This document shows positions 20,172 to 55,254 of a stretch of DNA of 64,000 nucleotides, piece after piece (the first letter of the stretch is position 1; the number at the start of each line of letters is the position of its first letter). Under the pieces are notes generated by a model, which was given only the letters and a program-made list of their open reading frames with translations, did not search any database and had not been told where the DNA came from. Origin of the DNA: Chthonomonadales bacterium (lineage in GTDB: Bacteria > Armatimonadota > Chthonomonadetes > Chthonomonadales > CAJBBX01); assembly GCA_020849275.1 (NCBI GenBank), contig JADLGO010000065.1, positions 62,001 through 126,000 on the forward strand. The letters run 5' to 3'. Both the position numbers and the translations under genes were made by a program.

Positions 20172-20726
20172 CTACATGCGAACGGCGTCGGCCAGATAGG
20201 CGGTCAGCGCGTCCAGCCAGCGCCCCTGGATCTTGAGCACCAGATCGCACATCTCGCGGACAGCGCCGTGTCCCCCCTCCTTCTCCAGCAGCAGGTCGGC
20301 CTCGGCCTTCACCTCGGCGGCGGCGTTGGCCGGTGCGAACCGCAGTCCACAGAGGCGCATCGGCGGCAGATCGTTCAGGTCGTCACCCACGTAGGCCACC
20401 TCGTCGACACCAAGGTCGTGCTCCCGCATGTCGGCCCCGAGGGCGGCGGCCTTGTCGGCGGCGCCCTGAATGAGCCGGCTCACCTGGAGCTCGCGTGCTC
20501 GCCGCTCCACGATGGCGCTTTGGCGGCTCGTCAGCCAGACCACGCGCAGGCCCGCGTGACGCGCGAGCTGAATGCCCAGTCCGTCCGCAACGTGGAAGCG
20601 CTTCACCTCGGAGCCGTCGGAGGAGAGCACAATGCCCCCGTCGGTCAGCACTCCGTCGACGTCCATGACGAGTGCCCGAATGGTCTCGAAGCGCCGTGTG
20701 AGCTCGGCAGCGTCCTGTTCGGCCAT
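20172..20726 (-). CDS. kdsC: 3-deoxy-D-manno-octulosonate 8-phosphate phosphatase (HAD family)
   Basis: 184 residues, as in KdsC, a capless HAD phosphatase acting as a tetramer. The nucleophile motif is 'MDVDGVLTDG' (about 21-30); 'WLTSRQS' gives motif II; Lys in 'ADKAAAL' motif III; 'YVGDDLNDL' motif IV. It starts one base after the kdsD stop on the same strand. Together they make and dephosphorylate Kdo precursors, pointing to lipopolysaccharide or a Kdo-type glycan. kdsA and kdsB are not in this window. Confidence 0.9.
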   Translation of the reverse strand: MAEQDAAELTRRFETIRALVMDVDGVLTDGGIVLSSDGSEVKRFHVADGLGIQLARHAGLRVVWLTSRQSAIVERRARELQVSRLIQGAADKAAALGADMREHDLGVDEVAYVGDDLNDLPPMRLCGLRFAPANAAAEVKAEADLLLEKEGGHGAVREMCDLVLKIQGRWLDALTAYLADAVRM

Positions 20727-20727
20727 A

Positions 20728-21702
20728 TCAGACGATCCCGCTGCGCAGCAGGTCCTTGAGCATGATCATGCCCACGGGGCGGCCGTCGGAGTCGACGACC
20801 GGCGCCTCGCCAGGTCGGCGGGGCGACTCCTCCAGGATGGTGAGGGCCTCGACGGCGAGTGGATCGCCCGCGACGACGAGCGGCTCGCGGTTCATTACCT
20901 CGGAGGCGGGCCGGTCGAGTGAGCCGACGTCGCGCAGGAGCGCACGGCGCAGGTCGCCGTCCGTCAGGATGCCGGCGAGCGTGCCGTGCTCGTCCACGAT
21001 GAACGCCGCGCCGGCGCGCGCGCGCGTGATGGCGAAGAGCGTGTCGCGCACCGACGCGCCGCCATCCACGATGGCGAGTTGGTCGCCGACGCGCATCACG
21101 TCCGACACGCGGAGGGTGAGGCGCCGTCCGAGCGCGCCCGCCGGGTGGTAGAGGGCGAACCGCTCGCGCGTGAAGCCTCGCGCCTCCATGGCGGCCAGCG
21201 CGAGCGCGTCTCCCATGGCTAGCATGGCGGCGGCGCTGGTGGTCGGCGCCAGGCCGAGAGGACACGCTTCCCCCTCGACGCCGACATCGAGGACCACGTC
21301 GGCAGCCATCGCCAGGGTGGAGGAGGGGACGCCGCACGCCGCGATCAGCGGCGCGCCGATGCGCCGGAGGGTCGGCAGCAGGCGCACCACCTCGTCGCTC
21401 TCGCCGGAATAAGAGTAGGCGATGACCACGTCGTCCGGCGTAACCACGCCCAGGTCGCCGTGGACGGCCTCGGCGGGATGAAGGAAGAGGGCAGGCGTCC
21501 CGGTGGAGGCCAGCGTGGCGGCGCTCTTGCGGGCGATGGCGCCGGCCTTGCCGACGCCTGTGGTCACGATGCGCCCATGGCAGGTCAGCAGCATCTCCAC
21601 GCCCTGGCAGAAACGCTGGTCGAGCCGCTCGGCGAGGGCGCGGATCGCCGCGGCCTCTGCCTCGAGGACGAGACGCGCGCGCCGCAGGATGTCCGTCTTC
21701 AT
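20728..21702 (-). CDS. kdsD: Arabinose-5-phosphate isomerase
   Basis: 324 residues: a SIS sugar-isomerase domain (about 30-180) with 'ITTGVGKAGAIARKSAATLA' and 'YSYSGESDE', then two CBS domains (about 205-320). This is the KdsD/KpsF/GutQ layout, converting ribulose-5-phosphate to arabinose-5-phosphate, the first committed Kdo step. The adjoining kdsC supports KdsD rather than GutQ. The ATG at 21702 sits nine bases after a perfect -10 box, so the leader is only about two bases. Confidence 0.92.
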   Translation of the reverse strand: MKTDILRRARLVLEAEAAAIRALAERLDQRFCQGVEMLLTCHGRIVTTGVGKAGAIARKSAATLASTGTPALFLHPAEAVHGDLGVVTPDDVVIAYSYSGESDEVVRLLPTLRRIGAPLIAACGVPSSTLAMAADVVLDVGVEGEACPLGLAPTTSAAAMLAMGDALALAAMEARGFTRERFALYHPAGALGRRLTLRVSDVMRVGDQLAIVDGGASVRDTLFAITRARAGAAFIVDEHGTLAGILTDGDLRRALLRDVGSLDRPASEVMNREPLVVAGDPLAVEALTILEESPRRPGEAPVVDSDGRPVGMIMLKDLLRSGIV

Positions 21703-21711
21703 CGCGCCCCA

Positions 21712-21740
21712 ATTATAGCAGACGCGAGGAGGGTCCGCAA
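21712..21740 (-). promoter_or_regulatory. kdsD-kdsC promoter, near-leaderless
   Basis: Minus-strand -35 TTGCGG (21735-21740), 17-base spacer, -10 TATAAT (21712-21717). The predicted start is about two bases before the ATG. Confidence 0.7.
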
Positions 21741-21787
21741 CGGAGGGCCGTTCGGCGAAGGAACCCGCGCGCGGGCGGTTCGCCGTC

Positions 21788-22267
21788 CTATCGCCACGGC
21801 GCAGCCCGAGCGCGCGCCGCGCGCATACGCGCTGCCAGCGCGCACACGGCAGCGGCGGCTGCCGCGCCCGACACGTCGATCAGCACATCCACGGGAGAAG
21901 GGGTGCGAGTCGCGACGAAGGCCTGATGGAGCTCGTCGGAGGCCGCGTAGAGCGCGGCGAGCGTGAGGGTTCGCCGCGCGCAGCGCTGCGGGTCGCGCAT
22001 GCCCGACACGCGGAGCGCCAACCAGACAAGACAAGCGAGGACGAAGTAGACGGTGAAGTGGGCGGCCTTGCGTACGACGAAGTTGGCCGCATCGAGCTGC
22101 GTCGGCGAAAGGGACTCCAGCCATCGCGGCGCCATAAGGCCCAGCGTGGTCCGCAGGAGCCATTGGGAGTTCGGGCTGCTTCCAGCGTCCGATGAGAGGA
22201 TGAAGATGACCGCTGCCCAGAGGGCGGCCGGGAGCGAGGCGACGAGCGTGCGCGCGCGCGAGCTCAC
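21788..22267 (-). CDS. VanZ-like membrane protein
   Basis: 159 residues with four hydrophobic segments (about 10-24, 70-88, 98-112 and 128-148). The signature 'KAAHFTVYFVLACLVW' followed by 'ALYAASDELHQAFVATRTPS' and 'DVLIDVSGA' is that of the VanZ family; the first member is linked to teicoplanin resistance, but most are of unknown function. The start overlaps the M61 peptidase stop by four bases (ATGA). Confidence 0.88.
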   Translation of the reverse strand: MSSRARTLVASLPAALWAAVIFILSSDAGSSPNSQWLLRTTLGLMAPRWLESLSPTQLDAANFVVRKAAHFTVYFVLACLVWLALRVSGMRDPQRCARRTLTLAALYAASDELHQAFVATRTPSPVDVLIDVSGAAAAAAVCALAARMRAARARAAPWR

Positions 22268-24069
22268 GGGCGGGGCGCGGCCGCTCTCGCCTCGTCATCC
22301 GCGCGAAGAAGGCCGCGCCGCACGGCCGCCGCCAGCGGGCTCGCCTCGGGCAGCGGGGCGAGCCGCGCGAACCCCGAGGCGCGCGAGCCGACCGTTACGC
22401 GCAGCCTCTCGGTTCCGCCGCCGCGCCGCACCCCGAAGGTGAGCTCCTGACCGATGCGGAGCGCGGCGACGCGCGCCTCCCACGCCTCGGGCGTCACGAT
22501 CTCGTCGTTCGCGGACACGATCCGATCGCCAGCCTGAAGGCCCGCCGCGTGCGCGGGCGATTCGTCGTCCACCCAGAGCACGTGGGTGCCGTCGCGAGCG
22601 GGCTCCACCGACATCCCGATGTAGGGCTCCGCCCCCTCGCCGGATGAGTACCGCAGACCGGCCTTCTCCATGACGTCGTCCCAGGGGATCTCGGCTGTCG
22701 AGCGCACGTAGCGGTCGTACAGTCGCCCCAGATTCGCTCCGGCCACCGTGTTGATGGCCTCGCGGATGGCCCGCTCACCGAAGGCCCGGTTTGCCTGTCC
22801 GTAGTGCTGGTCCAGCAAACGCATGACGTCGTCGAGGCCAGCGCGCCCGCGCGTGGCGGCGCGGATCTCCACGTCGAACAGCAGGCCGAGCATGCTCCCC
22901 TTGACGTAGTAGCTCAGGCCGCCGTACCCCATGCTGCCCCCCTCCCAGGTGCGGCGGCTCGCCTCCTCGGCGCTCACGCGCAGGCGGGCCGCGCTGCGCT
23001 GCAGATTGCGGATCCGGCCGGCCATCTCGTCGAGGAACTCCTGCTCGTCCGTGAGGCCGGCCATGCGCAGGAGCACGGAGGCGTAGTAGTCCGTGACGCC
23101 CTCGGAGAACCAGAGCGACGGCGTTCGCACGGCCCGGGTGTAGTCGAACGGCCCGAGCCCTGCCGGGCGGATCCGCTTTACGTTCCAGGCGTGGAAGTAC
23201 TCGTGCGCGGCCAGCTCCTGCCACTGGCGTACATGGGTCGCCGAGCCCGGTCCCAGGTTGAGCACGGTGCTGTTGCGGTGCTCGAGCCCGCCGGAGAAGC
23301 TGCCGCGAGACATGTGCAGGAAGAAGATGTACCGGTCGAATGGGGCTGACCCGAACAGGCGCACGCCGGCCGCGCCGATGCGGCCGAGCATGTCGGCGAG
23401 GCCCTCGCGGTCCACCTGGTCGGCGCCGACCACCACGGCCGAGAACGGCGTCGGGCCCACGCGGAACTCTACGCGCGTGAAGGCGCCGATCTGCAGTGGG
23501 CAGTCCACCAGTTCGTCGTAGCCGGTGGCGGAGAACGCGCGGTCGCCAGCCGGCGCGAGAGAGCAGGCCACCGCCCAGCCCGTCGGCGGGCTGACGCGCA
23601 GCTCGGCCGGGCTCTCCGCCCGCCCAACGATGTACATGAGCGCAGACGGGCCGTTCACGTAGCCGGTGGCGTCGTCCAGGTGGCTCCCAAAGAACCCGAA
23701 GCCAGAGTCGCGCGCGACCACCTGGTAGCTCGCGGTGACCCGAAGCGCGCCATCGGAGCGCACCTCCCAGCTCCGCTCGTCCGGCCGGGTTACCCTGAGC
23801 TCCCGCCCCGTCTCACCCCGCGCCGCGAAGCCCTCGATGTTCTTCTCGAAGTGGAGGATCTGGTAGTAGCCAGGTGTCCATGCGGGGATGGCGAAGCGCA
23901 CCGCCCTCGCCCCACCCGTCTCCGCGGAGACGGTCACCTGGAACCGGCGCTCCGGAAGGCTGGCAACGCTCACCTCGTAGAGGATAGGGCCGGCGAGCGC
24001 CGAGGCGCGGGTGGAGGCGGCTCCGACAAGGAGCACGGCGCACAGCAGAAGCAGGACGCGCAGTTTCAC
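22264..24069 (-). CDS. M61-family glycyl aminopeptidase-like protein with PDZ domain
   Basis: 601 residues with an N-terminal signal peptide (about 1-26). The M61 zinc site is intact: 'HEYFH' (289-293) and the third ligand Glu323 in 'FSEGVTDYY'; 'GGLEHRNS' (260-267) is another family mark. A PDZ domain follows at about 505-580 ('DESPAHAAGLQAGDRIVSAN'). It should act in the periplasm or outside the cell on small peptides. Translationally coupled to the VanZ-like gene. A -10-like TATACT lies at 24107-24112. Confidence 0.92.
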   Translation of the reverse strand: MKLRVLLLLCAVLLVGAASTRASALAGPILYEVSVASLPERRFQVTVSAETGGARAVRFAIPAWTPGYYQILHFEKNIEGFAARGETGRELRVTRPDERSWEVRSDGALRVTASYQVVARDSGFGFFGSHLDDATGYVNGPSALMYIVGRAESPAELRVSPPTGWAVACSLAPAGDRAFSATGYDELVDCPLQIGAFTRVEFRVGPTPFSAVVVGADQVDREGLADMLGRIGAAGVRLFGSAPFDRYIFFLHMSRGSFSGGLEHRNSTVLNLGPGSATHVRQWQELAAHEYFHAWNVKRIRPAGLGPFDYTRAVRTPSLWFSEGVTDYYASVLLRMAGLTDEQEFLDEMAGRIRNLQRSAARLRVSAEEASRRTWEGGSMGYGGLSYYVKGSMLGLLFDVEIRAATRGRAGLDDVMRLLDQHYGQANRAFGERAIREAINTVAGANLGRLYDRYVRSTAEIPWDDVMEKAGLRYSSGEGAEPYIGMSVEPARDGTHVLWVDDESPAHAAGLQAGDRIVSANDEIVTPEAWEARVAALRIGQELTFGVRRGGGTERLRVTVGSRASGFARLAPLPEASPLAAAVRRGLLRADDEARAAAPRP

Positions 24070-24224: not shown

Positions 24225-27200
24225 TCAGAACTCGGTCTTGATCTCGAGATTCGCGATCACCGAGTCCGGAGCCCCGTTCATGGAGACCGTGTACGCCGTG
24301 CTCAGCGCGAAGATATGGGTGGCGTCGACCCGACGATCGTAGCCCAGCGAGATCGTATGGCCGTCCGAGCGCTGGCCGTTCTGCGTGGAGAGGTCCACGC
24401 TGTAGCCGACCTGCACGGCGGTCTGCGCGTCGATGTGGCCCTGCAGCATGGCGCCGAGCTTCGACACACAGGTCGCCTTGGCCAGATCCTTGCTGGTGGT
24501 GTAGGCCAGCGAGAAGTCCAGCTTGCCGCCGACCTTTCGGGTGAGAGCAAACGCCGAGGACTTCAGCGGCTGCATGGCGTTGTTGGCGGCCTCGGGCAGC
24601 GACGAGTAGGTGTAGGTCAGGTTGGTCTGCTTGTCAATGCGGAGACCCACGTTGTAGTTTCGGACGAGCTGCAACTCCCCCCGGTTCACGTTGCGCGCCT
24701 TGTAGACGAAGCTGTAGTGCAGCGGCAGCTTGTCGTTCGGGTCGCCGACGATGGAGAGCTCGCGTGACTGGGCGCTGTGGCCCTTCTCGTCCAGGTTGCC
24801 GCTGTACTCGACGGCGACCTTGTTGTTGCCGAGCATGCCCTGCACGCGCCCGGCTACGGCCTGGCTGATCTCCTTGTGCTGGTCGTTGGTTGCGGCGTAG
24901 CGCAGCGTCGCCGTCGTGTCCTTCAGGCCGAGCAGGGTGATGGGCTTGGCGTTCGATATGCTCACGTCCGAGACCGCCTTCACGTTCTTGTCGTGCAGGT
25001 TGTACTCGCTGTAGGAGCCGGCGAAGTTCAAGTTCTTCGTCAGCGCGCCGTTGAGCGCGAACGACTTCACGGTGGCGTCGTTGTCGTTGTTGGTGTGCAC
25101 CTGAGCGTAGCTGCCGGCAAAGCTCAGCGTCGGGCGCGCCTGCCACTTCCATTCGACCGCGTCCGTCGTCGCGGAGGGATCGGATCCGCGATCCACCTCG
25201 AGGCGGTTGAACCGCATCGACAGCGCGCTGGACGCGCGGTAGTTGACGTCGACCTGCGTTGTGTTCTCGAAGTGGCCGTTGCCGAAGTCGACCCGCTTCG
25301 TCTCCGCCATCAGGTTGTTGGGCTTGGAGCGGTCCGTCGCGAAGTGAAGGAAGTTGGTGGTGACCGTCGGGTTCTGCTTGCCGCCAGCGATCGTGCCGAC
25401 GGTATCGCGGTAGAGGCTGAGCTTCATGCCCTTCTGCAGATGGTGGTCGAAGGTGATGGTGTTGTGCGTGACGCCGTCGGTGACCGCGCCCTGGCTGGCC
25501 GACGAGTTGCCCTCGGTCAGGTAGGACACGCGCGTGCCCGCGCTGGGCGCCCAGGCGGCGAAGTGGCGGAACACCTGGCGCTTGAGCGCGTCGGCGGAGT
25601 TGGCGGCGTCGTAGACGTAGGTGTTGAGCGTGAGGCCGCGTACGGCGGTCAGGTTGGCGGAGAAGTCCATCCGCTGGAACCCGCGCTCGGACTCGATGCC
25701 CTTGCGCTCGGCGTCGCTCAGACCGGCCATGTCGCCCGCGCGCGTGAAGGACTGGCCCGTGCTGCCCAGGTTCAAGCGCGCGTCCAGGCCGCGCGTGGTG
25801 TACGCGAAGCTCTGGCGGCTCATGCTGCCGTTGCGGTCGCCGGCGGTGAGTTGCGAGTACGCGAACGAGGTGCCCCGCGAGAGCGCCAGGTTCAGGCCCA
25901 TCGAGGTCCGTCCCATGCCGACCTCGTTGCCGAGTTGCGCGCGCTCGAAGTCGCTCATCGAGCCCAGCCTGGCGAACGACTCCGAGATGCTCTGGCTGAG
26001 ATAGTTGAACGAGTAGCCGCGGCCGTTGAGGCTGAGGGTGCGGCGCTGGACGTCGCCGGCGCCATCCTTCACCGCGAACTGGTTGTAGGCGAGGGCGCCC
26101 TGCTTGCCGAGGGCGGCGCCCATGGCGAGTTGGCTGCGCTCCAGGCCGGCCTCGCGGACGACCTGCTCCTTATCCTTGGCGGTGACGTCGGAGGCCTTGG
26201 CGTTCGGATCGAACATCCGGCGCATGCCGAGGGCGACAGCGGTCTTGTCCGCATCGCTCAGGTCGTTGAGCCTGGCAAAGCCGGCGTCCGTTTTGCGCCC
26301 GGCCATCATCAGGCTGAAGCCCTTGCCGTTCAGCTCGAGGAGCTGGTCGCTCAGGCTGCCGGAGGCGTCACCGATCTGGTTGCGGTTGAAGCCGAGCGCC
26401 GCGCCCTTGACACCGGTGAACCCCAGAGAGAGCTCGCTGCGACGCACGCCCTTCTCTCGTGCCCACTGACCCGCCTCGCCGTCCGTCAGGTTCTTGAACG
26501 CCGCGAAGCCCTGCCCGACCTCCTGCGTCTTGTAGCGCAGGTCCAGGGTGCTGGACTTGAAGCCGAGGCTCTGGCGCATGATCTGGCCCGCGCCGTCGCC
26601 GATGCGGTCCCAGTCCATCGCGAGGTTGGAGCCCTTGCCCATCGCCAGGCCCGCGCCAAACCCGAGGCGCTGGATTCCCCGCTCCTTCTCCAGCGCGGCG
26701 ATCCTGGCCATCGTGTCGGCGTTGGCGGCGTTGGCCTGTCGCATGGACTGGAAGCCGTTGAAGCTGGCGCTCACGTCCTGGAAGCGTGCGCTGAACGTTG
26801 CGTTTCCCGCCTTCAGGGTCAGGTCCTGTGCGATCAGGTGGCCGCTCTTCGCGGAGTTCGGGTCGCCCTTGGCGGGCGTCGCGCCGCCGTTGGCGGCGGT
26901 GGGCGCCACGCGGTTGCCATTGCTGCCGGCAGGCGTGCTCATGTAGAACATGCCCTTCATGCTACCGCCGCTGCCCACCTTGCCGTTGAGCGCGAGGCCA
27001 TAGGTGGTGAAGTCGAGGCCGCCGGCGCTCGAAACCCCGTAGCCGATGCTCAGGGAGGCCCCCTTCAGGTCTAGCGCCATGCCGGGCAGGCTCAGCAGGG
27101 AGCGGCTGCCGTCCTGGCCCTCCACGTAGCTGTAGTTGGCGGTGATGCTCTGGAAGCTGCGGACAGCCTCGGAGAAGAAGACCATTCCGGTGTTGTAGTC

Positions 27201-27521
27201 AACGAAGTAGTCGACGTTGGGTGTGAGCGTGCGCGCACCGACGCTGACCCGAACGCTGGAGGGGATGACGCCGCCGTGGGAGAGCATGTAGCCGGCACGC
27301 GTGCCGTTGCCGCGCAGCACCTCGGCAAACGGCTTGCCCGGCTGCGTGGGGTTTCCGTCCTTGTCCACGTAGGCCAGGGTCTGGCCCTGAAACGCGCTCG
27401 GCCGCTCGGCCTTCCAGTTGAGCTCGAGCGGCTTCTGCGCGGCGCTCCGCGCCCCGGCGCCGGCAACCATCGCGGCGATGACGATGCACTGATTCACGGC
27501 TCTGGCGGCTCTGCGCGTCAT
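24225..27521 (-). CDS. Large outer-membrane-type beta-barrel protein with five internal repeats
   Basis: 1098 residues with a signal peptide (about 1-28). Residues 40-135 form an N-terminal beta module ('VRVSVGARTLTPNVDYFVDY') of the kind found at the start of SprA-like and other large surface proteins. The rest is dominated by alternating-polarity strands rich in Gly, Ser, Asn and aromatic residues, and the chain ends in Phe, the usual barrel-assembly signal. Five repeats begin near residues 254, 339, 415, 516 and 592; each has a 'FxR/A...LSDA' helix segment, then Glu-x-Gly-x-x-Arg and strands. GGAGG lies seven bases before the ATG. It follows the anti-sigma-like gene by 46 bases. Cargo or ligand unknown. 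Confidence 0.82.
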   Translation of the reverse strand: MTRRAARAVNQCIVIAAMVAGAGARSAAQKPLELNWKAERPSAFQGQTLAYVDKDGNPTQPGKPFAEVLRGNGTRAGYMLSHGGVIPSSVRVSVGARTLTPNVDYFVDYNTGMVFFSEAVRSFQSITANYSYVEGQDGSRSLLSLPGMALDLKGASLSIGYGVSSAGGLDFTTYGLALNGKVGSGGSMKGMFYMSTPAGSNGNRVAPTAANGGATPAKGDPNSAKSGHLIAQDLTLKAGNATFSARFQDVSASFNGFQSMRQANAANADTMARIAALEKERGIQRLGFGAGLAMGKGSNLAMDWDRIGDGAGQIMRQSLGFKSSTLDLRYKTQEVGQGFAAFKNLTDGEAGQWAREKGVRRSELSLGFTGVKGAALGFNRNQIGDASGSLSDQLLELNGKGFSLMMAGRKTDAGFARLNDLSDADKTAVALGMRRMFDPNAKASDVTAKDKEQVVREAGLERSQLAMGAALGKQGALAYNQFAVKDGAGDVQRRTLSLNGRGYSFNYLSQSISESFARLGSMSDFERAQLGNEVGMGRTSMGLNLALSRGTSFAYSQLTAGDRNGSMSRQSFAYTTRGLDARLNLGSTGQSFTRAGDMAGLSDAERKGIESERGFQRMDFSANLTAVRGLTLNTYVYDAANSADALKRQVFRHFAAWAPSAGTRVSYLTEGNSSASQGAVTDGVTHNTITFDHHLQKGMKLSLYRDTVGTIAGGKQNPTVTTNFLHFATDRSKPNNLMAETKRVDFGNGHFENTTQVDVNYRASSALSMRFNRLEVDRGSDPSATTDAVEWKWQARPTLSFAGSYAQVHTNNDNDATVKSFALNGALTKNLNFAGSYSEYNLHDKNVKAVSDVSISNAKPITLLGLKDTTATLRYAATNDQHKEISQAVAGRVQGMLGNNKVAVEYSGNLDEKGHSAQSRELSIVGDPNDKLPLHYSFVYKARNVNRGELQLVRNYNVGLRIDKQTNLTYTYSSLPEAANNAMQPLKSSAFALTRKVGGKLDFSLAYTTSKDLAKATCVSKLGAMLQGHIDAQTAVQVGYSVDLSTQNGQRSDGHTISLGYDRRVDATHIFALSTAYTVSMNGAPDSVIANLEIKTEF

Positions 27522-27567
27522 CTCAATCCTCCGGAGATGCTCTCGGCCCCCTGGCGTGCAGGGCTGG

Positions 27568-28581
27568 CTAGAAGCTTCCGCGGATTACGTCAATGCGGAT
27601 CTCGCGTCCATCGGGTGCGGCCGTGATCGGACCGCCATCGCGGTCGGACGCGCGTCGGGAAAGCGTGCGCCGCAAGTCGGCGAGCGAAGCGATCTGGCCG
27701 GCGTCCATGGTGTGGCTTGATGCGGCCAGCACGATGCGGGCGGGCTGACTCGGCGTGGCATCGGCGGGCGCCACCGGCGCCTCCATCGGCGCAGGACCCG
27801 CGCTGGCTGCCTCGGGCTCGGTGCTGCGGGCGTCCGCCATCACCGGGGCGGGGATCGCCGGCGTCGCGGCGGCCGGGTCGACGGTCGGCACCGGCCTCGC
27901 GCGGTAGGTCACGCGAGGCGCAGTGGCCGCGGCCATACGGTGCTCGCGGCTGGCGCTGGCGGTCCGTGAGCGGCCCGCGGACCTCACCACGGCGACGCGC
28001 GGGGCGGCCGGGCGGCCGGGCGCGGAGGCTTCAGGGGCGGAGGCGGCCGAGCGACGGATCGCTTCGCTGACGGCGCCCATGTCCTCTCGGAGCGTCCGGG
28101 GAGTGTCGTGGCGGGGAAGATCGGCGACCGCGCCGGGGCCGGCCGATCGGTACTCGGCCGGGTTGACCAGGTTGCCCGTGCCCTGGTGAAGCGTGGCCAG
28201 GGTGAAGGCCGCGGCGGCGCCGGCGGCGATGAGAGCGCCGTAGCGGGCCGGAGCGGGAGCGAACGCGCGCCGCACCGCGGCCGCGACGCGGTCGGCCAGG
28301 GTCGGACGGTAGATGGTGGCGGCGAAGATCGCCTCGCGCAGGCGGGCGGGCGGCTCCAACTCGGCCACGTCGGCCAGAAGGGTCGAGGTGCCGCGCATGA
28401 ACGCCAGGTCGCGGGCGCACGAAGTGCACTCGGCGACGTGTGCCTCGACCACGGCCGTCTCGCGCGCATCGGCCTCGCCGTCCGCATAGGCAGAGAGCAG
28501 GTCCCATACCGTATCGCAGTGCATGGCCCCCTCCGATCGCCCGGCCTTCGCGTCCGGGTCATGGTTGAACGGCTGGTTCAT
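27568..28581 (-). CDS. Anti-sigma-factor-like membrane protein with zinc-finger N-terminus
   Basis: 337 residues. The N-terminus has the anti-sigma HxxxCxxC zinc motif ('HVAECTSCARDL', about 48-59), then a helical linker, one membrane segment (about 113-130, 'ALIAAGAAAAFTLATL') and a long Pro/Ala-rich periplasmic region ending in a small folded piece. This is the layout of a transmembrane anti-sigma factor, but no sigma gene is adjacent. The start at 28581 has GAGAGGA upstream and follows a plausible promoter. It is the first gene of an operon with the beta-barrel gene. Confidence 0.78.
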   Translation of the reverse strand: MNQPFNHDPDAKAGRSEGAMHCDTVWDLLSAYADGEADARETAVVEAHVAECTSCARDLAFMRGTSTLLADVAELEPPARLREAIFAATIYRPTLADRVAAAVRRAFAPAPARYGALIAAGAAAAFTLATLHQGTGNLVNPAEYRSAGPGAVADLPRHDTPRTLREDMGAVSEAIRRSAASAPEASAPGRPAAPRVAVVRSAGRSRTASASREHRMAAATAPRVTYRARPVPTVDPAAATPAIPAPVMADARSTEPEAASAGPAPMEAPVAPADATPSQPARIVLAASSHTMDAGQIASLADLRRTLSRRASDRDGGPITAAPDGREIRIDVIRGSF

Positions 28582-28595
28582 GGCTACGGTCCTCT

Positions 28596-28607
28596 CGATG
28601 CGCATCG
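28596..28607. promoter_or_regulatory. 12-bp perfect palindrome at the anti-sigma promoter
   Basis: CGATGCGCATCG reads the same on both strands and covers the predicted transcription start of the anti-sigma/barrel operon, a natural place for a repressor. No known binder can be named. Confidence 0.35.
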
Positions 28608-28636
28608 ATGATTGCGGTCTCATTACCCTGTGACAA
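28608..28636 (-). promoter_or_regulatory. Anti-sigma/barrel operon promoter
   Basis: Minus-strand -35 TTGTCA (28631-28636), 17-base spacer, -10 AATCAT (28608-28613). Predicted start near 28601, about 20 bases before the ATG. Confidence 0.5.
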
Positions 28637-28714
28637 CCCGCACGAGCGTTTGTTGCGCCTTTTCCGGGGCGAGTCGGGTAATCCGTCGGGCGAGGGCCCG
28701 GCCGCGCCGACGCC

Positions 28715-54168: not shown

Positions 54169-54633
54169 TCAGCGCGTGTTGGCCAGCGGCAGGCTCGGAG
54201 TGAGCCCGGGCAGCGCCGGCGCGCCGACGCCGGGCGGCTGGGCCGGCCGCGATCGGCCGGATCGGGCCGCGATGGTCGACGGCGTCGCCCTGCGACCGAA
54301 GTAGCCGACGGCGTAGAGCGCGAAGAGCAGGACGGCGGCTGCCACCGCACCGGCCGCCGCGTACGGGAACCAGGCCCACGGGCGTCGCTGTGGCGCCGGG
54401 GCGGCACGCTCCTCGGCGATCCGATTGCGGATGGCGCGCGCGAGCGCGGGGGAAGGATCGCCCATGCCATCGCGTGCGGCGCACAACTGAAGCTCGATCC
54501 CGTTCCACGTTCGAATATAGACGCGACATTCGCCGCAGTCCTGAAGGTGTCCTGCTACCTCGGCCGGAATCGATCCCGCGCCCCGGTCGTCGAACCACCG
54601 CTGGATGCGGGCCCGGACGGCTTCACATCGCAT
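54169..54633 (-). CDS. Anti-sigma factor with zinc-finger domain
   Basis: 154 residues. An N-terminal 'HLQDCGECRVY' gives the HxxxCxxC zinc motif; one membrane helix lies at about 90-112; the periplasmic tail is Pro/Ala-rich. It starts 54 bases after the ECF sigma gene on the same strand and should hold that sigma factor inactive until an envelope signal arrives. Confidence 0.88.
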   Translation of the reverse strand: MRCEAVRARIQRWFDDRGAGSIPAEVAGHLQDCGECRVYIRTWNGIELQLCAARDGMGDPSPALARAIRNRIAEERAAPAPQRRPWAWFPYAAAGAVAAAVLLFALYAVGYFGRRATPSTIAARSGRSRPAQPPGVGAPALPGLTPSLPLANTR

Positions 54634-54687
54634 CGAGTTCCCCCATCCGCCGTTGCCGGCGGCCGCGCCGCATGGCGCTGGCGTCGC

Positions 54688-55254
54688 CTACCGCACGACC
54701 GGCCCGAGGCGGGTCGCCAGCCGCTCGCGAGCGCGATGCAACCGCACCTTGACCGCCCCGGCGGAGATCGACAGCGTTCTCGCGATCTGCTCGACCGACA
54801 TCTCGTCGAAATAGAACAGCGTCACCACGACGCGGTGGGGCTCGGGCAGGGCGTCCACCGCGCCCCGCACCCGCCGGTGTCGCTCGTCGTCCAGCGCGGC
54901 CTGCTCAGGCGTAGGCCCCTCCGCGCAAGCGCTCACCGTCTCCAGGGCGCCGGTCGGTCGCCGAGATCGCAGCCGCCGTCGGCACTCGTTGAGCGCGATC
55001 CGGTAGATCCAGCTAGCGAAGTAGCCGTCTGGCCGGTACGATCCCAGACCACGGTAGGCCCGGACGAACGTCTCCTGGACTGCGTCCTCGGCCTCGCCAC
55101 GGTTCTGCAGTGCGCGCATGGCAAACCGGTATAGCCGGGCCTGATAGCGGGCGACGAGCTCGTCGAACGCGCTCGGGTCCCCCAGGCGACACCGCACCGC
55201 GAGACGGTCCTCTACTTCGGCCGGCGGCCCCGCCGCGCGCAACTCAAGCGACAT
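54688..55254 (-). CDS. ECF-type RNA polymerase sigma factor
   Basis: 188 residues. Region 2 has 'DAFDELVARYQARLYRFA'-like sequence, then 'AEDAVQETFVRAYRGLGSYR' and 'SWIYRIALNECRRRLR'; region 4 has 'ALPEPHRVVVTLFYFDEMSVEQIA' and 'GAVKVRLHRARERL'. No region 3 or 1.1, as in group 4 sigma factors. Paired with the downstream anti-sigma gene. The 200-base leader contains an inverted repeat. Confidence 0.94.
   Translation of the reverse strand: MSLELRAAGPPAEVEDRLAVRCRLGDPSAFDELVARYQARLYRFAMRALQNRGEAEDAVQETFVRAYRGLGSYRPDGYFASWIYRIALNECRRRLRSRRPTGALETVSACAEGPTPEQAALDDERHRRVRGAVDALPEPHRVVVTLFYFDEMSVEQIARTLSISAGAVKVRLHRARERLATRLGPVVR

Follow-up and report, generated by a model that had tools for sequence, protein, structure and literature searches.

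We analysed a stretch of 64,000 nucleotides from a Chthonomonadales bacterium of the phylum Armatimonadota (contig JADLGO010000065.1, positions 62,001 to 126,000; this whole stretch is called the window hereafter), in which a gene for an anti-sigma-like membrane protein lies directly ahead of a gene for a giant outer-membrane barrel. We estimate at slightly better than even odds (a probability of about 0.55) that this gene pair makes up one half of a circuit that resembles sigmaE, monitors the outer membrane and has its components split over two loci. What can be read from the sequences themselves is that the pair is conserved, that the tail of the anti-sigma protein has a conserved end, that a promoter of the extracytoplasmic function (ECF) type precedes the pair, that a sigma gene linked to bamA stands without an anti-sigma partner, and that sigma and anti-sigma are jointly absent from one clade.

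A conserved anti-sigma and giant barrel gene pair

Both genes lie on the minus strand, as do all window features described below. The anti-sigma-like gene (27568-28581, with its stop at 27568 and a likely ATG at 28581) encodes a single-pass membrane protein of 337 aa, and a gap of 46 nt separates its stop from the start of the barrel gene (24225-27521), exactly as the original prediction had proposed. The HxxxCxxC motif, single membrane helix and long tail that it had also described were all recovered. The zinc motif HVAECTSC (aa 48-55) lies in a cytoplasmic zf-HC2 anti-sigma domain (ASD; aa 20-89, 28315-28524) that matches PF13490 above the Pfam cut-off (E 4e-12) and whose sequence profile matches RsiW 5wuq (E 3.6e-6) and DdvA 8rlz, so that the protein is, by its domain, a zf-HC2 anti-sigma factor. 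The RseA family gave no match to it among Pfam and NCBIfam matches at E up to 1. An AlphaFold model computed from 23 aligned homologues (mean predicted local distance difference test score, pLDDT, of 59) showed confident ASD helices at residues 22-106 (pLDDT mostly >85 over the domain), a membrane helix at residues 110-133 (28183-28254) and disorder from residue 136 to 293, within a Pro/Ala-rich, presumably periplasmic tail (aa 134-293, 27703-28182) where pLDDT is <50 over most of the length. The model and homologue comparison then place a short amphipathic helix containing SLADLRRTLSRRA at aa 294-314 (27640-27702), after which nothing is structured. The protein ends with a putative strand, REIRIDVIRGSF (27571-27606), which carries the terminal Phe, is unstructured when modelled alone and resembles barrel ends in its last five residues.

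The second protein of the pair (1098 aa) is a barrel by fold, as judged from its open reading frame (ORF), a structure model and fold matches. The model, built on 23 sequences, reached a pLDDT of 81 and a predicted template modelling score of 0.48, and about 50 strands could be counted from its listed elements. Foldseek searches with this model matched LptD (E 2e-7) and SprA (E 1e-5), with low TM-scores, and a VIA alignment, which covered mainly residues 766-1098, paired residues from about 720 to 1098 with ushers and porins (Z about 15). Pfam offered no family for the barrel at E up to 1, and a search of PDB sequences with the barrel profile returned 0 matches. Its conserved N-terminal domain (aa 60-135, 27117-27344), recognized from invariant columns, contains a SprA-like motif, GNGTRAGYxLSHG, and matches TIGR04189 (SprA; E 5.5e-5). 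We rejected membership of the SprA family, since this match reached 20.5 bits against a cut-off of 200 and covered residues 76-115 only.

The giant barrel was detected in 176 of the 291 phylum genomes searched (E <= 1e-20). Separation of the two genes in relatives had been named beforehand as evidence against the proposal; the genes stay together, with an anti-sigma homologue directly upstream of the barrel in 63 of the 79 assessable loci, which are the non-redundant fetched giant-barrel loci with enough upstream sequence. Pairing is thus far above chance, and the pair is upheld as a candidate for an undescribed envelope-signalling system. Using the family labels of the genome search, in which f1-f3 make up the order of the window, the pair was present in 52 of 53 loci of mixed families outside f4, f14, f28 and f29, in 7/7 f29 loci and in 4/4 f28 loci; the anti-sigma gene was missing upstream of the barrel in 13/13 loci of f14 (probably a Fimbriimonas-like family), in 2/2 loci of f4 and in one f23 locus. 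These counts leave out the small barrels L050, L094 and L096 and also L071 (215 nt upstream), as well as L067, L090, L240 and L074 (893 aa), in which the upstream sequence is cut short or the second barrel is weak. L054, where 613 nt separate the anti-sigma gene from the split barrel frame below it, is included as paired. In two genomes, G002 and G025, no giant barrel was detected, yet a Phe-tailed anti-sigma and the sigma linked to bamA are both retained, as they are in a third (G045), whose giant barrel lies elsewhere. Because G002 and G025 retain the anti-sigma without a detected barrel and f14 retains the barrel without the anti-sigma, the anti-sigma appears independent of the barrel.

Several variants and relatives of these genes were also seen. 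Copies in family f3 (L049, L053-L066) have lost the zinc ligands of the ASD and have kept the gene, the tail end and mostly the promoter; f28 copies have lost the zinc ligands and the terminal strand, the gene itself being kept. A full-length, Phe-ended paralogue with 36% identity (G000:C45:33778-34770, equivalent to L075:7575-8780) has no adjacent sigma gene and adjoins a CBM9 protein rather than a barrel, and unpaired copies resembling it occur in G002, G003, G006, G011, G001 and G025. The N-terminal motif of the giant barrel recurs in a second family of barrels, about 650 aa long (L076:8720-10675, L050:12183-14186, L081 and L082), and the L050 member of this family lies just upstream of an anti-sigma and giant barrel pair. 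Downstream of the barrel, the window contains homologues of kdsC and kdsD (20172-24069); in f1 relatives kdsD directly follows the barrel, and in the window genes for an M61-PDZ peptidase and a VanZ protein intervene. The window's genome also has genes for lipid A and 3-deoxy-D-manno-octulosonic acid, one LptA-like LptD_N protein was found, and the LptD model PF04453 matched in none of 21 genomes (0/21), a model that detects LptD in only 2 of 14 control genomes. The giant barrel may conceivably be the LptD of the phylum, in view of the missing PF04453 matches and of the kdsC and kdsD genes downstream of it in the window and in f1 relatives; the low detection rate of the model and the presence of the LptD_N protein call for caution.

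A barrel-like tail end and an ECF-type promoter

In an alignment of 17 homologues, only five positions are invariant: M1, D34, P78, I85 and the terminal Phe 337. Among barrel-linked anti-sigmas from mixed families, 51 of 52 end in Phe and one in Tyr; f29 tails are looser, 2/7 being Phe-ended, one ending in Phe-Lys and four having a similar strand without Phe. We then compared the tail end with the presence of a neighbouring sigma gene in 63 complete homologues from 65 loci: of the 41 whose immediate upstream neighbour is a sigma gene, none was Phe-ended, compared to 9 of the 22 that lack such a neighbour, a comparison in which four homologues (L110, L113, L115 and L116; 0/4 Phe-ended) were scored as orphans by the script, given long ORF starts, and are sigma-adjacent by coordinates. 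The same pattern was seen inside the window's genome, where 2 of 14 zf-HC2 matches are Phe-ended, namely the anti-sigma of the pair and the C45 paralogue, neither with an adjacent sigma gene, and where 11 of the other 12 have a sigma gene alongside by coordinates. As a background, 4.2% of 353 other predicted genes encode Phe-ended proteins.

Conservation is not limited to the last residue, since 49 distinct tails have hydrophobic residues at -6 (94%), -8 (89%) and -5 (91%); the hydrophobic positions of Phe-ended barrel ends are -5, -7 and -11. Residues -5 to -2 of the tails score like those of barrels of the phylum, with an area under the curve (AUC) of 0.91 against other proteins and 0.77 against Phe-ended proteins. 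A barrel-end profile over -9 to -2 separated the tails from other proteins with an AUC of only 0.70, and from 15 other Phe-ended proteins, a control set that includes some other barrels and the C45 paralogue, with an AUC of 0.52. In E. coli, the beta-signal at the barrel C-terminus follows the motif GxxPhixPhi, according to PMC13067283. In the tail, the terminal Phe and residues -5 to -2 resemble barrels of the phylum; residues -9 to -6 do not. By its sequence, then, the tail end is barrel-like and is not a copy of the barrel's last strand.

The anti-sigma and barrel genes had been proposed to share one promoter, and this is supported by an ECF-type promoter-like motif, GNAACA-N15-TGTC, located at 28632-28656 (-35 GCAACA, -10 TTGTC), which occurs once in the window where 0.17 matches were expected. 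An initial search for GGAAC upstream of the anti-sigma gene had given nothing useful; an alignment of the upstream regions of 11 operons later revealed GNAACA-N15-TGTC as a common block, with one variant (GCCACA, in L038). AAC and GTC, both elements of ECF promoters, are present in the motif, and their spacing presumably equals that of the E. coli sigmaE promoter. In its strict form it precedes 19 of 25 barrel-linked f1-f3 operons (about 0.06 expected), and AAC-N17-GTC precedes 24 of the 25 (about 0.06 expected), in L038 at another spot. The strict motif had 26 distinct matches in 2.6 Mb of partly redundant locus sequence, of which 20 precede a Phe-tailed anti-sigma gene by 29-116 nt and one more, probably by chance, precedes such a gene by 369 nt. 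It was also found before L262, an f4 copy without a neighbouring barrel, and in f37, with relaxed forms in f13, f16 and f18.

A candidate partner sigma in the bam operon and the proposed circuit

The original prediction had noted that no sigma gene stands beside the pair, and indeed none is adjacent to it in the window; the neighbourhood loci contain 4 sigma matches in all, none immediately upstream of the pair. Elsewhere in the window, at about 54523-55158, an ordinary sigma gene and a zf-HC2 gene lie side by side, and in some f19 loci (L232-L234) a further ECF sigma gene is oriented divergently to the anti-sigma and barrel operon, as it is in L093 (f19), where it lies beside a second anti-sigma homologue. 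The genome search that had been suggested for a partner turned up a candidate in the bam operon. This ECF sigma gene (L316:8034-8693, minus strand, in the window's genome) lies between a TamB homologue (PF04357) and bamA; an ompH/skp-like gene comes next, and lpxD one gene later. Among NCBIfam models, RpoE fits the sigma best (E 8e-40, under the curated cut-off). A survey of 50 bamA loci of 60 genomes, leaving out G024, G182, G229, G031, G034, G048, G042, G044, G038 and G052, showed that bamA is immediately preceded by a sigma gene in all 40 loci outside f14 (38 by hidden Markov model and 2 by tblastn, L325 and L327, the latter partial at a contig edge) and in none of 10 f14 loci. No anti-sigma homologue was found next to this sigma gene in the bamA loci examined. 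Family f14 thus lacks both the bamA-linked sigma (0/10 loci) and the barrel-linked anti-sigma (0/13). In a BamA tree, f28, in which the anti-sigma has decayed and the sigma is kept, is sister to f14 with a support of 1.0; sigma and anti-sigma therefore appear to have been lost together in one lineage in which the barrel stayed. This apparent co-loss is the strongest, although not decisive, evidence for a partnership.

We propose that the anti-sigma would sit in the inner membrane, where its cytoplasmic ASD may hold the RpoE-like ECF sigma encoded in the tamB-sigma-bamA operon, while the disordered tail would span the periplasm and present its Phe-ended strand to an outer-membrane partner. The tail might be held by the barrel assembly machinery (BAM), by the giant barrel translated from the shared mRNA, or by a PDZ protease recognizing barrel-like ends. 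A disturbance of barrel assembly would lead to release or cleavage of the tail and free the sigma, possibly through a membrane protease (an M50 protease with a PDZ domain exists), and the freed sigma would recognize GNAACA-N15-TGTC and drive the anti-sigma and barrel operon. HtrA-type and S41 proteases, which such a release would call for, are likewise present. We infer the binding of the sigma to the ASD, its reading of this promoter, the tail target and the signal, and the order and identity of the steps follow by analogy with sigmaE as outlined in PMC6737893. The tail target is the least certain part of the circuit. A more specific version, which we put forward only tentatively, is that the anti-sigma has its own outer-membrane-protein-like C-terminal signal, such that BAM or a barrel under construction might hold the tail end directly and the anti-sigma itself would read across the periplasm whether the machine is free or occupied, feeding the RpoE-like sigma of the bam operon.

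A number of observations weigh against the proposed circuit. Residues -9 to -6 of the tail match barrel ends poorly (AUC 0.29), because the strand before the last five residues is shifted in phase by one residue relative to them; in addition, the last residue drifts in f29, and f28 has lost the tail end together with the zinc ligands. Operons of f6, f8, most of f19, f28 and f29 did not show the promoter motif upstream, nor did the roughly 1.3 kb before bamA, in a search that stopped short of the tamB upstream region. The co-loss is one event, f14 being a single clade. Sigma and anti-sigma show a weak partial distance correlation when BamA is controlled for (0.19; 5 of 999 permutations), below that between sigma and barrel (0.39); tree distances add little and do not discriminate. 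Lastly, no giant barrel was detected in one genome (G055) that has the bamA-linked sigma, and other sigma partners are possible because 19 of the 30 Sigma70_r2 matches in the window's genome have no zf-HC2 neighbour.

Alternative readings and known systems

If the tail end beta-augmented only its own giant barrel, the two proteins would form a dedicated receptor pair that signals to some ECF sigma in the manner of FecA-FecR. The immediate adjacency of the genes in most assessable loci, with short gaps, and the single ECF-type promoter ahead of both genes would fit such a pair, yet f14 barrels exist without the anti-sigma, Phe-tailed anti-sigmas persist in G002 and G025 although no giant barrel was detected there, and Phe-tailed paralogues in G000 (C45), G003, G006, G011, G001 and G045 have no adjacent barrel gene within the stretches covered, making this reading unlikely in our judgement. 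Since Phe tails are kept without an adjacent barrel gene, we consider a shared target, either BAM or a protease, more probable than the neighbouring barrel. The likeness to FecA-FecR that had originally been suggested did not hold up: the pair resembles FecA-FecR-FecI in combining a barrel and a transmembrane anti-sigma in one operon, but its Pfam matches, taken up to E 1, include no FecR, STN, plug or TonB-receptor domain, and it lacks a neighbouring sigma gene, so that membership of that system was rejected.

The Phe end might instead be a PDZ- or Tsp-type handle through which DegS-, HtrA- or S41-like proteolysis, and not a barrel, controls the anti-sigma. Four HtrA-type PDZ proteases, one M50 protease with a PDZ domain and three S41 proteases are present, an M61 peptidase with a PDZ domain comes after the barrel in the window, and the terminal Phe is the best conserved tail residue; moreover, the PDZ domain of E. 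coli DegS binds unfolded barrel C-termini, as stated in PMC6737893. Against this, conservation extends along the strand to the hydrophobic positions -6 and -8, beyond what a short handle would need, and the M61 gene is not at that place in the f1 relatives listed, leading us to regard purely proteolytic control as improbable. That the protein has become a structural tether between inner and outer membrane, with a zinc-finger domain that no longer binds a sigma, is suggested by the f3 and f28 copies that keep the gene without zinc ligands and by the missing adjacent sigma gene. It seems very unlikely to us, considering that f3 retains the ECF-type promoter and the bamA-linked sigma and that f14 is devoid of both sigma and anti-sigma.

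The proposed surveillance circuit would have a close counterpart in the E. coli sigmaE-RseA-DegS-RseP system, with which it would share an RpoE-like sigma, a single-pass anti-sigma, a link to barrel assembly and a barrel-like C-terminus as a cue, DegS being described in the same source as a reader of C-termini (PMC6737893). It would differ in that sigma and anti-sigma genes lie in two loci, that the ASD is of the zf-HC2 type without an RseA domain match, and that the anti-sigma carries the barrel-like end on its own chain. The ASD profile is akin to zf-HC2 (ZAS) anti-sigmas such as RsiW and DdvA, but most of these adjoin a sigma gene (11/14 in the window's genome), and the sigma-adjacent ones are never Phe-ended (0/41). 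TamB, which is not known to have an anti-sigma domain, is likewise anchored in the inner membrane and spans the periplasm, and its C-terminal domain contacts BamA in Borreliella (PMC11361582). The giant barrel recalls SprA of type 9 secretion and LptD in its size, its weak SprA motif and its Foldseek matches, but the TM-scores of these matches are low, the SprA score is far under the family cut-off, and PF04453, a weak detector, found no LptD in the 21 genomes.

Among the open-access papers listed by searches on Armatimonadota and Chthonomonas, anti-sigma and ECF sigma factors, beta-signals and bam/tam genes, no title or abstract opening described such a circuit. If our proposal is true, a deep-branching diderm phylum would possess a sigmaE-type outer-membrane quality control made of parts unlike the enterobacterial ones, with the sensor end sitting on the anti-sigma factor. 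The partnership is directly testable, given a candidate sigma, an anti-sigma, a promoter and a Fimbriimonas-like clade that naturally lacks the system.

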